Assembly (NCBI GenBank): GCA_024696945.1
Contig: JAILGF010000075.1
Coordinates: 1-64,000, forward strand
Length of the DNA stretch: 64,000 bases
From: Lachnospiraceae bacterium
GTDB taxonomy: Bacteria > Bacillota > Clostridia > Lachnospirales > Lachnospiraceae
Direction of reading: 5' to 3'
Positions 4,319 through 9,011 of the stretch are shown here, piece after piece; positions within the stretch are counted from its first letter, which is position 1, and each line of letters opens with the position of its first letter. Made by a program: the position numbers and the translations under genes. The notes beneath the pieces are model-generated. The model was not told the DNA's origin, ran no database searches, and saw only the letters and a program-made list of their open reading frames with translations.

Positions 4319-4597
4319 ATGGAAAACAAGCATACGGAGAGCGGGAGTATTTTATGTTTCCATACTGGACGGACGCGACTACTTTATTCCTACAATTATC
4401 GAGTGTTCTAAGGATGGTACGGTATTTTACACATATGACGGAATGGAAAAGGCTTGGCCTGATGAAGGAATGGAGCGTTTCTTTAAGAAATTCAAGTAAA
4501 CAAGGCCGAGATGGTGAATATCTATAGAGTGAAAAAGCTTTCCGGGACGGGTGAGCTTGAAATCATAAACTATGGAGTATACGATGACGGCAGTTGA
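4319..4597 (+). pseudogene. frameshifted small gene remnant
   Basis: Manual translation: MENKHTE... continues as AGVFYVSILDGRDYFIPTIIECSKDGTVFYTYDGMEKAWPDEGMERFFKKFK* in another frame, then VNKAEMVNIYRVKKLSGTGELEIINYGVYDDGS* in a third; promoter upstream. Confidence 0.5.
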
Positions 4598-4612
4598 TAA
4601 AGGCATAGGAAT

Positions 4613-4807
4613 ATGAAAAACATTAATCCATACATGAAAGTACAGATAAAGAACCAGGTACTTGAGGTCGATAATTTTTTAAAACTTCTCAGGGGTGCAG
4701 CAGTCAAAGATGACGGAGTTGTTGATTCCGATGAAGAGAAGATTATAAAGAAAATTGAAAAGGCTTCAAAAAAATACAGAGACTTACTAAAAGAATATTG
4801 TGAATGA
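4613..4807 (+). CDS. small charged helical hypothetical protein
   Basis: 64 aa ORF before the nuclease genes, rich in K/E/D. Confidence 0.5.
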   Translation: MKNINPYMKVQIKNQVLEVDNFLKLLRGAAVKDDGVVDSDEEKIIKKIEKASKKYRDLLKEYCE

Positions 4808-4867
4808 TATTAAAAAAACTTTTTTATACTGTGTGTATATTCAAATGAAAAAAATAGAGGTGATAGA

Positions 4868-5779
4868 TTGGGTCTTAAGGCAAAAACTATAAATTTATTG
4901 TTGTATGATGGAAATCTTAATGGAGTCATAAGTATTCAGGATTCAAGTTGGAATTCCGGAGAATTGTATTCCTCCCCTCGGGAATCTGTTGCAGATTTGC
5001 TTAAAAATGGAGCTTGCAGTAAATTTGGGGTTTATCTTTTGTTGTCAGATGACATGGTTTATGTGGGACAAGCATCAGATCTTGCAAAGCGGTTATCGCA
5101 GCATTTGTTAGGTAAAGAATGGTGGCAAAATGCAGTTATTCTTACAACAACTGATGACAGTTTAAATCATTCTGATATTGACTATATTGAGTATGTATTG
5201 ATAGATAAGGCTTTTGCAATAGAAAGACTTGACTGTGATAATAAGAAAAAGGGAAATCCGCCAAAGGTAGATAAATTTAGAAAAGTTATTCTTGATCAAT
5301 ACTTAGAAGAAGCATTATTTGTGATGCAGCTTATTGGAATTAATGTATTTAATGAAGATAAGAAGAGTACGCATAAAGGGTTGATAGATGTAACCAGTGT
5401 TAATGTTAAACTTTCTTTGGGTAAAAGGACCAAAACCGAAGCTATAAAGTATGCTTCAGAAAATGGCGTAAAATTAGCATCAAAAAACACAAGCTATGCT
5501 GTACTTCGTCCTGATAAAGGTTATTTTTGGATTAATCCAAGAATAAAAGTACTTGAAAGTGATTGGAATGTTATTTTAAATGATACTGCCAATTCAGAAC
5601 TGGTTATATTATCTGTTCCAGCAAATACCTTTGATGATGATAATAAATCTAATATGGGGTTGAAAGTTCGTAAAGATAAACCTGATCTTTTGGACATTAA
5701 AATTTCACGTGAAAAACTCACTGATACTGTGAGTGGCTTAAGCTTTTCCAAATATTTACAAACCAAGATTAAGTATTAG
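4868..5779 (+). CDS. GIY-YIG nuclease family protein, probable DUF4357 C-terminus
   Basis: FGVYLLLSDDMVYVGQASDLAKRLSQHL (GIY-YIG core); C-terminal ASKNTSYAVLRPDKGYFWINPR...W; TTG start. Confidence 0.75.
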   Translation: MGLKAKTINLLLYDGNLNGVISIQDSSWNSGELYSSPRESVADLLKNGACSKFGVYLLLSDDMVYVGQASDLAKRLSQHLLGKEWWQNAVILTTTDDSLNHSDIDYIEYVLIDKAFAIERLDCDNKKKGNPPKVDKFRKVILDQYLEEALFVMQLIGINVFNEDKKSTHKGLIDVTSVNVKLSLGKRTKTEAIKYASENGVKLASKNTSYAVLRPDKGYFWINPRIKVLESDWNVILNDTANSELVILSVPANTFDDDNKSNMGLKVRKDKPDLLDIKISREKLTDTVSGLSFSKYLQTKIKY

Positions 5780-5877
5780 TATAGAAAACATTTATAAATC
5801 TTGATTTGTAAGTAGAGCTTAAGAAATATGCTTAACAGTGTATATTAAGAAACCTTAAATTGAAAGGAACTAGAGAT

Positions 5878-8016
5878 ATGGCGAAAAGCCCAAGATGTCT
5901 ATATGAAAGCGATATTGCGTCATTTCTTAATGAAGATCCGAATTCAATATTTGGGATAATAAATGATAAATACCATGGTTCTGCACTTACTACAACAAGG
6001 GAAGCATGGAAAAATGAAATTGAAATACTTCAGGAGAAGTTAATTCCTTGGAAAGACTCTGGTGGGAAAATAGTATTTGAGTATGATATCCCTCGCTTGG
6101 GTAAAAGAATTGATGTGATATTATTGTTAAGGGGTATTATTTTTTGTTTGGAATTTAAAATTGGTGAGTCAAAAATTTTGGAACCTGATGTAGATCAGGT
6201 TCTTGATTATGCTTTGGATTTGAAAAATTTTCATAAATATAGTCAAGCCAATTTGATTGTACCTATACTTATAGCTACAGAATATAATAGTTGCACAAAA
6301 TTAATTCAGCCTTCGGTATATGATGATAGAGTTGTTAACCCATTAATGACAGGAGTAAAAGGTATATCAGAGATACTGACAGAATTAGTGCAGATGTATC
6401 CTAATGAACCTTCAATCAATCCCGATTGGATTATAAGTCCATATGCACCGACGCCTACAATCATAGAGGCTGCAAGAACTTTGTATGAAAGTCATTCGGT
6501 AGAAGATATTACACGACATGAAGCGGATCAGGTAACTACAGATAATACCATTTCTTATATTTTACAAGTTATTCAAAAAAGTAAAATGAATAGAGAAAAG
6601 AGTATTTGTTTTGTAACCGGAGTTCCTGGGGCTGGAAAAACATTGGTAGGGCTTGATGTAGCGGTAAAACAGACATATCAGGGGTCGGATACCCCTATTG
6701 AAGATGAAGGTGCTGTTTATTTGTCAGGAAATGGCCCCTTAGTAGCAGTTCTTAATGAGGCTCTTGCAAGAGATAATTTCAAGAAATGCAAAGACAGGGG
6801 AGAAAATAAGAAACTATCTGATTCAAGACGAGAAGTTGGTAAATTTATCCAAATCATACATCGATATCGAGACAATATGCTTGCAAAAATCAAGAACCCT
6901 GTTGAAAATGGAGTGCTTGAAATTGATCCCCAAAAAGCAGTTAAAAGTACAGGAGCCGGATATGGCGAGGTTGAGCATGTTGCCATATTTGATGAGGCTC
7001 AACGTTCATGGACACATAGCAGACTTGCTAATTATTTAAAGAGAGGCGGAACTTATGGCAATAAATTAAAGGTACCTAACTTCCCTATGTCAGAAGCAGC
7101 ATTCCTGATATGGTCTCTTGACCAGCGTGAGGACTGGGCAACTATAGTATGTCTTGTTGGAGGAGGGCAGGAGATAAACACCGGCGAAGCGGGTATTACC
7201 GAATGGATTAAAGCCTTAAATGAAAAATTTTCTCATTGGAAAATTTACATTTCTCCCCAGTTATCCGAGCCGGAATATGCAGAGGGTAAAGTTGATGAGT
7301 TGTTAGCAGAAAATAATAATGTTACATACTCAAAGAATTTGCATTTAGGAGTATCATTACGTTCATATAGAGCGGAAAAGCTTTCTGCATTTGTCCATGC
7401 TATTCTCGATGTTGATGAAAGTGCAAAAATATTATATTCAGAAATAAAGAAAAACTATCCCATAGTACTTACAAGAGATATGGAAAAAGCTAGGAGATGG
7501 TTGCATGAAAAAGTTAGAGGGACTGAAAGAACAGGAGTTCTGATTACAAAAGAGTCCGCCAGATATAAACCACTTGGAGTGCATGTACTTGTATCAGATG
7601 ATGAAAATGCTGTTCATTGGTTTCTTGATGATAAGGCAGATACAAGGTCATCAAATTATTTAGAGGATGCCGCAACCGAGATTCAGGTTCAGGGATTGGA
7701 ATTAGATTATACTTGTTTGCTGTGGGATGCTGACATGCGATATGAAAATGGTAAATGGCATTATTATAGATTTAATAGAAGTACAGAATGGAGTGAGTTA
7801 AAGGCTGAAAGTGAGAGCAAACAGGAACAAATGAAATACATGCTGAATGCATATAGAGTTTTGCTTACTCGTGCAAGAGCAGGAATGGTTATATGTGTAC
7901 CTGAAGGTAATGCCCATAAAACAGCCAGTGGATTTTGGGAGGATAGTACACGTCTTCCGGAGTATTATAATGGTACTTATGAATATTTGAAAAGCATGGG
8001 GATGGAAGAAATTTGA
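5878..8016 (+). CDS. predicted PD-(D/E)xK nuclease domain fused to DUF2075 (SF1-like) helicase
   Basis: N-term RIDVILLLRGIIFCLEFKIG...DVDQVLDYALDL (D...ExK...QxxxY); Walker A GVPGAGKT; Walker B VAIFDEAQR; LVGGGQEINTGEAG; C-term QVQGLELDYTCLLWD and YRVLLTRARAGMVICVP; ATG at 5878 has an RBS. Confidence 0.8.
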   Translation: MAKSPRCLYESDIASFLNEDPNSIFGIINDKYHGSALTTTREAWKNEIEILQEKLIPWKDSGGKIVFEYDIPRLGKRIDVILLLRGIIFCLEFKIGESKILEPDVDQVLDYALDLKNFHKYSQANLIVPILIATEYNSCTKLIQPSVYDDRVVNPLMTGVKGISEILTELVQMYPNEPSINPDWIISPYAPTPTIIEAARTLYESHSVEDITRHEADQVTTDNTISYILQVIQKSKMNREKSICFVTGVPGAGKTLVGLDVAVKQTYQGSDTPIEDEGAVYLSGNGPLVAVLNEALARDNFKKCKDRGENKKLSDSRREVGKFIQIIHRYRDNMLAKIKNPVENGVLEIDPQKAVKSTGAGYGEVEHVAIFDEAQRSWTHSRLANYLKRGGTYGNKLKVPNFPMSEAAFLIWSLDQREDWATIVCLVGGGQEINTGEAGITEWIKALNEKFSHWKIYISPQLSEPEYAEGKVDELLAENNNVTYSKNLHLGVSLRSYRAEKLSAFVHAILDVDESAKILYSEIKKNYPIVLTRDMEKARRWLHEKVRGTERTGVLITKESARYKPLGVHVLVSDDENAVHWFLDDKADTRSSNYLEDAATEIQVQGLELDYTCLLWDADMRYENGKWHYYRFNRSTEWSELKAESESKQEQMKYMLNAYRVLLTRARAGMVICVPEGNAHKTASGFWEDSTRLPEYYNGTYEYLKSMGMEEI

Positions 8017-8070
8017 CAGAGCAATAACACTTAAAAATAAGAGCTTTATCTATTAATGGAGGCTAAAAAA

Positions 8071-8391
8071 ATGACTTTTGACGAATTATTAAGCAAGGTA
8101 CGAAAAATAGCATCAGAAACGGATATCAGCGGTACTGATTTTCTTGCAGTACAAGTAAATATCACTGAGCCTGACGGAGGCGTCTTTTATGTTGAAGTAA
8201 AAGATGGAAAGGTTAATGTTGAGCCATATGAGTATAATGACAGAAACTGTGCAGTAACAATGAAAATGGCAGATTTCAACAAACTCCTTGATGGTAAGCT
8301 TAATCCTGTTATAGCATTTACAACCGGTAAACTTAAGGTGGACGGGGATGTAGGGAAGGCTCTTGAATTTTCAAAGTTATTAAAGAATTAA
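8071..8391 (+). CDS. SCP2 sterol-binding-like domain protein
   Basis: FYVEVKDGKVNVEPYEYNDRNCAVTMKMADFNKLLDGKLNPVIAFTTGKLKVDGDVGKALEF; GGAGG just upstream of ATG 8071. Confidence 0.75.
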   Translation: MTFDELLSKVRKIASETDISGTDFLAVQVNITEPDGGVFYVEVKDGKVNVEPYEYNDRNCAVTMKMADFNKLLDGKLNPVIAFTTGKLKVDGDVGKALEFSKLLKN

Positions 8392-8408
8392 AAAGTTGAA
8401 GGATTAGA

Positions 8409-9011
8409 ATGAAAGTATATGTAGTAGAACAGATTACCGAGGCAGACTATGGATGCGAAGATACCGGAAGAAAAGAACCGATGGCATTATTAAAACTTAG
8501 AGATCTTTCTCCGGAGTCTGAACCTGAGCCGATAAGGTATGTTGAATTGTCAGAGGCAGATATTTCTAAGCAGGGTATAGTTGAAGGAAAAAAGGTTTGC
8601 TTTAACGCTGAAGGTAATATAAAAAAATATGTAAATGTAGTTGCAGCGGTTATTTACAAAAACGAAAACGGTGTTGAAAAGATATTTGCAACACAGCGTG
8701 GTTATGGGGATTATAAAGACGGATGGGAGTTCCCCGGAGGGAAAGTGGAACCGAAAGAAACACCCGAAGATGCAATAGTCAGGGAAATTAAAGAAGAGTT
8801 AGATACTGATATTAATGTTGAGGAATATATCGGTACGGTAGAATATGATTATCCTACATTTTATCTTTCGATGAGATGTTTCCGATGTACAATAGAATCC
8901 GGTAGTCTAATTCTTAAAGAGCATGAAGCAGCAAAATGGTTAAAGATGGATGAACTGGATTCTGTTGACTGGTTGCCGGCAGATATTGAAGTGGTAAAGA
9001 TGATAAGATAA
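8409..9011 (+). CDS. NUDIX hydrolase (MutT-like) with N-terminal extension
   Basis: Nudix box GGKVEPKETPEDAIVREIKEELD. Confidence 0.88.
   Translation: MKVYVVEQITEADYGCEDTGRKEPMALLKLRDLSPESEPEPIRYVELSEADISKQGIVEGKKVCFNAEGNIKKYVNVVAAVIYKNENGVEKIFATQRGYGDYKDGWEFPGGKVEPKETPEDAIVREIKEELDTDINVEEYIGTVEYDYPTFYLSMRCFRCTIESGSLILKEHEAAKWLKMDELDSVDWLPADIEVVKMIR

Follow-up and report, generated by a model that had tools for sequence, protein, structure and literature searches.

The window, a stretch of 64,000 nucleotides from a Lachnospiraceae bacterium, contains a gene for a 712-residue nuclease-helicase. A GIY-YIG nuclease-like gene lies directly upstream, and an SCP2-like gene and a NUDIX hydrolase gene lie downstream on the same strand (Table 1). 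The nuclease-helicase frame runs from an ATG at 5878 to a stop codon at 8014-8016, with an in-frame TTG at 5860 and an AAAGGA Shine-Dalgarno-like stretch 5' of the ATG. Both RIDVILLLRGIIFCLEFKIG and DVDQVLDYALDLKNFH are inside this 712-residue frame. The D-ExK-QxxxY pattern that the preliminary description had placed in the N-terminal domain was found there in frame, as D79, E92-x-K94 and Q107-xxx-Y111, and the helicase motifs GVPGAGKT, IFDEAQR and YRVLLTRAR are in the same chain, C-terminal to it.

Table 1. Features of the nuclease-helicase locus (positions in the window).
Feature	Position	Strand	Basis
GIY-YIG nuclease-like gene immediately upstream, PADLOC PDC-S14; may belong to the cassette	4868..5779	+	Pfam, PADLOC; 79-80% identical copy in G598
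Nuclease-helicase gene, 712 aa, PADLOC PDC-S41	5878..8016	+	Open frame; PDC-S41 model E 4.6e-244, residues 6-712
PD-(D/E)xK core, residues 38-133	5989..6276	+	AlphaFold2 models; fold matches to restriction-like nucleases
E68, invariant acidic residue, first core strand	6079..6081	+	Alignment
D79, predicted catalytic aspartate (RxD)	6112..6114	+	Invariant in 26 N-domains
E92-x-K94, predicted catalytic ExK	6151..6159 (E92 6151-6153, K94 6157-6159)	+	Invariant
Q107-xxx-Y111 motif	6196..6210 (Q107 6196-6198, Y111 6208-6210)	+	Invariant
SLFN-g3 (DUF2075) superfamily 1 helicase domain, residues 241-675	6598..7902	+	PF09848 E 3.2e-68; fold matches SLFN11, Upf1
Walker A GVPGAGKT, residues 248-255	6619..6642	+	Sequence and alignment
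Walker B IFDEAQR, residues 370-376	6985..7005	+	Sequence and alignment
Motif VI YRVLLTRAR, residues 659-667	7852..7878	+	Sequence and alignment
SCP2-like gene between helicase and NUDIX; probably unrelated	8056..8391	+	PF02036
NUDIX hydrolase, MutT/NudG-like, PADLOC PDC-S07; probable partner	8409..9011	+	PADLOC and neighbourhood association

The bare motif was rejected as proof of a nuclease, because shuffling the protein 5000 times produced its loose form in 173 cases (3.5%). With near-exact spacing, it was found in 1 of 5000. Since the loose motif is not rare in shuffles, conservation and fold were needed to decide. Twenty-six N-domains, 20-72% identical to the window sequence, were aligned. 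Only 12 columns were invariant (W44, E68, R73, G75, R77, D79, L83, E92, K94, Q107, Y111 and P191), and all five motif residues were among them. The chance that five of five motif residues fall among 12 invariant columns of 200 is about 3e-7 if relatedness is ignored. In an alignment of nine sequences reaching down to 28% identity, the invariant positions of the N-terminal 200 residues were W44, F67, E68, R77, D79, E92, K94, Q107, Y111, H119, T134, Y189 and P191, and the helicase motif residues were nearly all invariant.

The structure was predicted with AlphaFold2. The model from the full alignment (27 sequences) had a pLDDT of 79.6, and that of the N-domain had a pLDDT of 90.6 and a pTM of 0.88. 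Both models gave a helix at 38-54, strands at 64-71, 76-84 and 87-94, a helix at 102-118 and a strand at 126-133, which is the alpha-beta-beta-beta-alpha-beta order of the PD-(D/E)xK superfamily. The second strand carries D79, the third carries E92 and K94, and the helix after it carries Q107 and Y111; in this superfamily, the D and ExK residues are conserved on core strands two and three. Searching the PDB by sequence with the full protein or the N-domain profile gave nothing meaningful, and fold comparison alone was informative. Among solved structures, the N-domain was most like Cdn1, McrC, Can2 and R.BspD6I, followed by Dna2, Bax1, Hjc, Cas4 and further restriction-like nucleases, with modest TM-scores of 0.2-0.5. 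A motif arising by chance on a non-catalytic DNA-binding relative would be consistent with the shuffles, but we consider it highly improbable, because none of the catalytic residues varies across the 26 sequences, even at 20% identity, and all lie within the expected fold.

The Pfam scan of the window N-domain alone matched no nuclease family at E up to 1. When the 26 N-domains were scanned singly, 10 matched NERD and five matched HSDR_N (best E 4.9e-5); PDDEXK_9, HSDR_N_2 and SduA_C were also matched, and any further family was matched by a single member at most. We take all of these to be families of the PD-(D/E)xK superfamily. Individual PDC-S41 N-domains thus resemble NERD and HSDR_N, whereas the window's own N-domain matches neither. 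Fold, motif and conservation agree with the earlier proposal of a PD-(D/E)xK nuclease domain fused to a DUF2075 helicase. On sequence and models, our results supported that a PD-(D/E)xK nuclease domain, with predicted catalysis, precedes a superfamily 1 helicase that is complete. Neither outcome named beforehand as refuting the proposal was obtained: a restriction-like fold was found, and the motif residues were conserved in homologs.

The helicase domain scored 231 bits against the Pfam SLFN-g3_helicase family, for which the gathering cut-off is 24. When the full model was compared with solved structures, SLFN11 and SLFN14 were the best matches, and Upf1, GajB and UvrD were also matched. By this likeness, the protein could be a Schlafen-like enzyme whose target is RNA, such as tRNA in infected cells, since Pfam places its helicase in Schlafen group 3, the group of vertebrate SLFN11 and SLFN14. 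However, the nuclease core of Schlafen proteins has a fold different from the restriction-like one, no Schlafen or AlbA_2 match was detected in the N-domain by Pfam, and the restriction-like fold found there instead matches the DNA nucleases McrC, R.BspD6I and Hjc. An RNA-directed role is therefore very unlikely.

The whole chain matched the PADLOC model PDLC05014 (PDC-S41), a candidate phage-defence family, over positions 3-653 of 657. No difference from this family was found. Neither domains nor a mechanism are given in its PADLOC record; the nuclease assignment comes from this analysis. The literature yielded no text on PDC-S41 or on DUF2075 nucleases, and no enzymatic or phage data for the family.

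Relatives of the nuclease-helicase were found at 20 loci in genome contigs, 11 in viral contigs, in four plasmid records and in one phage record, and more were obtained from whole-genome searches. The viral relatives were detected with the alignment as query; scanning the viral contigs with the single window protein gave no relative. Presence was patchy, in 6 of 200 genomes of the family and 6 of 391 of the class. One copy, 70% identical to that of the window, lies on a Prevotellaceae (Bacteroidota) MAG contig with a NUDIX gene overlapping its end (L015:66-2240); it could be a recent transfer or a binning error or contamination. At two further loci (L063:198-2356 and L017:5882-7126), the gene is apparently split into two frames or shortened, and these appear to be decaying copies or assembly errors.

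A nuclease followed by a Upf1-like helicase also recalls Dna2, a eukaryotic repair enzyme that has a PD-(D/E)xK nuclease, then a Upf1-like SF1 helicase, and an iron-sulphur cluster. This enzyme is one of the weaker fold matches of the N-domain, although no sequence similarity to it was found in the PDB search with the full protein. That the protein serves housekeeping DNA repair or recombination in the manner of Dna2 or AddAB, and not defence, is nevertheless quite improbable, given the very patchy presence, the plasmid and viral copies, the nuclease- and restriction-type genes that recur beside it and its listing as a defence candidate.

The protein matched the Nhi PADLOC model PDLC02372 only at residues 231-265 (E 0.00037); both the Nhi and the AbiO models of PADLOC match it only around the P-loop. 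Full Nhi membership was rejected, since the Nhi model was not matched over its length. Because of this weak match, the comparison with Nhi was made. Four Nhi proteins from other genomes had PF09848 and an N-terminal EFDLLRF...NIELK signature, and the AbiO model found three of the four. Whole-chain profile comparison with Nhi gave E 1.3e-9 over 412 columns, most of the length of the chain, with the catalytic D and ExK aligned; the N-domains alone aligned weakly. Like Nhi and AbiO, the window protein has an N-terminal D...ExK domain and a C-terminal PF09848 helicase in one chain. Unlike them, it is about 200 residues shorter and belongs to its own clade: in the tree, long branches separate PDC-S41, Nhi and S640, another DUF2075 type, into groups of their own. 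Nhi has been described as one enzyme able both to recognise phage replication intermediates and to degrade them (PMC11084316), and as activated by the phage single-stranded-DNA-binding protein (PMC10732053). Restriction-like nucleases with P-loop helicases have been described as Nhi-like (PMC10734457). The window protein belongs to PDC-S41 and probably acts in the manner of Nhi, while lying outside the Nhi model.

The preliminary description had called this nuclease-helicase self-contained. It is indeed a single chain, but its relatives recurrently adjoin NUDIX, HNH, methyltransferase or second helicase genes, and a NUDIX and a GIY-YIG gene also occur beside a DUF3427 nuclease-helicase in a related genome, so this part of the description is doubtful. 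The sequence of the window NUDIX shows its Nudix box to be intact (GGKVEPKETPEDAIVREIKEEL), and the protein is about equally close to NudG and MutT. Its association was counted over 24 core-clade loci that are unbiased, having been found through the nuclease-helicase; loci selected by NUDIX (L060, L063, L067 and L069) were left out to avoid circularity. A NUDIX gene was on the same strand, at most 1 kb downstream, in eight of them (the window, L002, L005, L007, L009, L015, L018 and L044). With 10 NUDIX genes in the 3.9 Mb of the genome that carries the window, 0.03-0.09 loci of this kind would be expected among the 24 (binomial p 5e-18 to 2e-14, relatedness ignored). Among distant homologs, NUDIX was downstream at L092 and L030 and upstream at L024, and at L028 an HNH-NUDIX fusion was directly upstream. 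The SCP2-like gene was absent from the recurrent neighbours. In two genomes, NUDIX and a SAM-dependent methyltransferase were fused in one frame (L005:8179-9189 and L072:2778-3794). The NUDIX protein most probably has an accessory part, with the nucleotide pool as its predicted target. This neighbourhood is the new part, and its probable partner genes may surprise a specialist; the kind of nuclease-helicase itself is already known.

Besides NUDIX, the genes that recurred near the nuclease-helicase were S640, a SAM methyltransferase and an HNH gene weakly similar to the Cas9 HNH domain, and a MazG-like gene turned up a single time. At L067:675-7178, L091:5020-10919 and L074:4776-11225, a block of S640, methyltransferase, the weakly Cas9-HNH-like gene and the nuclease-helicase recurred, sometimes with NUDIX or MazG-like genes, and is perhaps a larger defence operon. 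The GIY-YIG gene of the window has the conserved upstream half common to the PADLOC PDC-S14 models. Its activity is uncertain, because its Pfam GIY-YIG match is borderline (22.4 bits versus 22.6). No relative was found when viral contigs were scanned with this protein.

Searching within the genus by NUDIX showed that other copies adjoin DUF3427 nuclease-helicases, which PADLOC classes as type IV methyl-directed restriction (mREase_IV). In genome G598 (L059, G598:C259:3000-12370, 4330-8963), genes for a DUF3427 PLD-helicase, a NUDIX hydrolase and a GIY-YIG protein follow one another, the latter two being 70-72% and 79-80% identical to those of the window. The DUF3427 protein is likewise a nuclease-helicase with these neighbours, whereas it has a PLD-type nuclease and a superfamily 2 helicase with a DUF3427 tail, and no apparent sequence kinship to the window protein. 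The same NUDIX and GIY-YIG beside a different nuclease-helicase suggested that the nuclease-helicase slot is apparently exchangeable. The window enzyme may thus be an exchangeable effector of a small defence cassette whose NUDIX would act on the nucleotide pool. Nothing linking NUDIX with PLD-helicases was found in the anti-phage literature.

This arrangement could also be read as a modification-dependent, type IV-like cassette, in which DNA with modified bases is attacked and the NUDIX hydrolyses modified dNTPs to spare the host DNA. The type IV class of the G598 helicase flanked by window-like NUDIX and GIY-YIG genes points to it, as does the fusion at L028, whose HNH part matches type IV models. 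So do L024, where NUDIX, a type IV-class HNH gene and the helicase are in a row, and a NUDIX about as near NudG as MutT. However, the Pfam scan found no modified-base reader domain in the nuclease-helicase, and two thirds of the unbiased loci are without a close downstream NUDIX. We consider it rather unlikely. The L028 fusion (L028:3374-4855; HNH endonuclease of PADLOC type IV class) overlaps the nuclease-helicase start on a Niallia taxi megaplasmid. Unlikely, too, though in line with the neighbouring genes, is the more specific proposal that PDC-S41 is a swappable effector of a NUDIX-centred cassette, where NUDIX would remove modified dNTPs that a modification-dependent nuclease-helicase would punish once incorporated. 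If true, self-immunity would be obtained through cleaning of the nucleotide pool, not through DNA methylation.

Computation showed the order of the domains, a nuclease fold with an invariant active site, ATPase motifs that are intact, a patchy distribution, homology to Nhi/AbiO and the NUDIX association. From the invariant motif, the fold, the PDC-S41 match, the Nhi profile alignment, the patchiness and the plasmid and viral copies, we infer that the gene quite likely encodes an Nhi-like anti-phage (or anti-plasmid) nuclease-helicase, with predicted activity and defence role. Its superfamily 1 helicase would load onto abnormal or replicating foreign DNA and travel along it, and the fused PD-(D/E)xK domain would cut the strand fed by the ATP-driven helicase, with D79, E92 and K94 holding metal and activating water. 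By analogy with Nhi, the trigger may be phage replication intermediates. The polarity and the defence role are predictions as well. The adjacent MutT/NudG-like NUDIX would serve as the accessory.

In conclusion, a candidate-only defence entry, PDC-S41, becomes a concrete predicted enzyme with a named active site, placed beside Nhi and AbiO. Single-chain nuclease-helicases would then appear as a broader group of prokaryotic defence, with a helicase that vertebrate Schlafens also have. The repeated NUDIX, which also occurs beside unrelated type IV-class nuclease-helicases, offers a testable idea of how the host may be spared.
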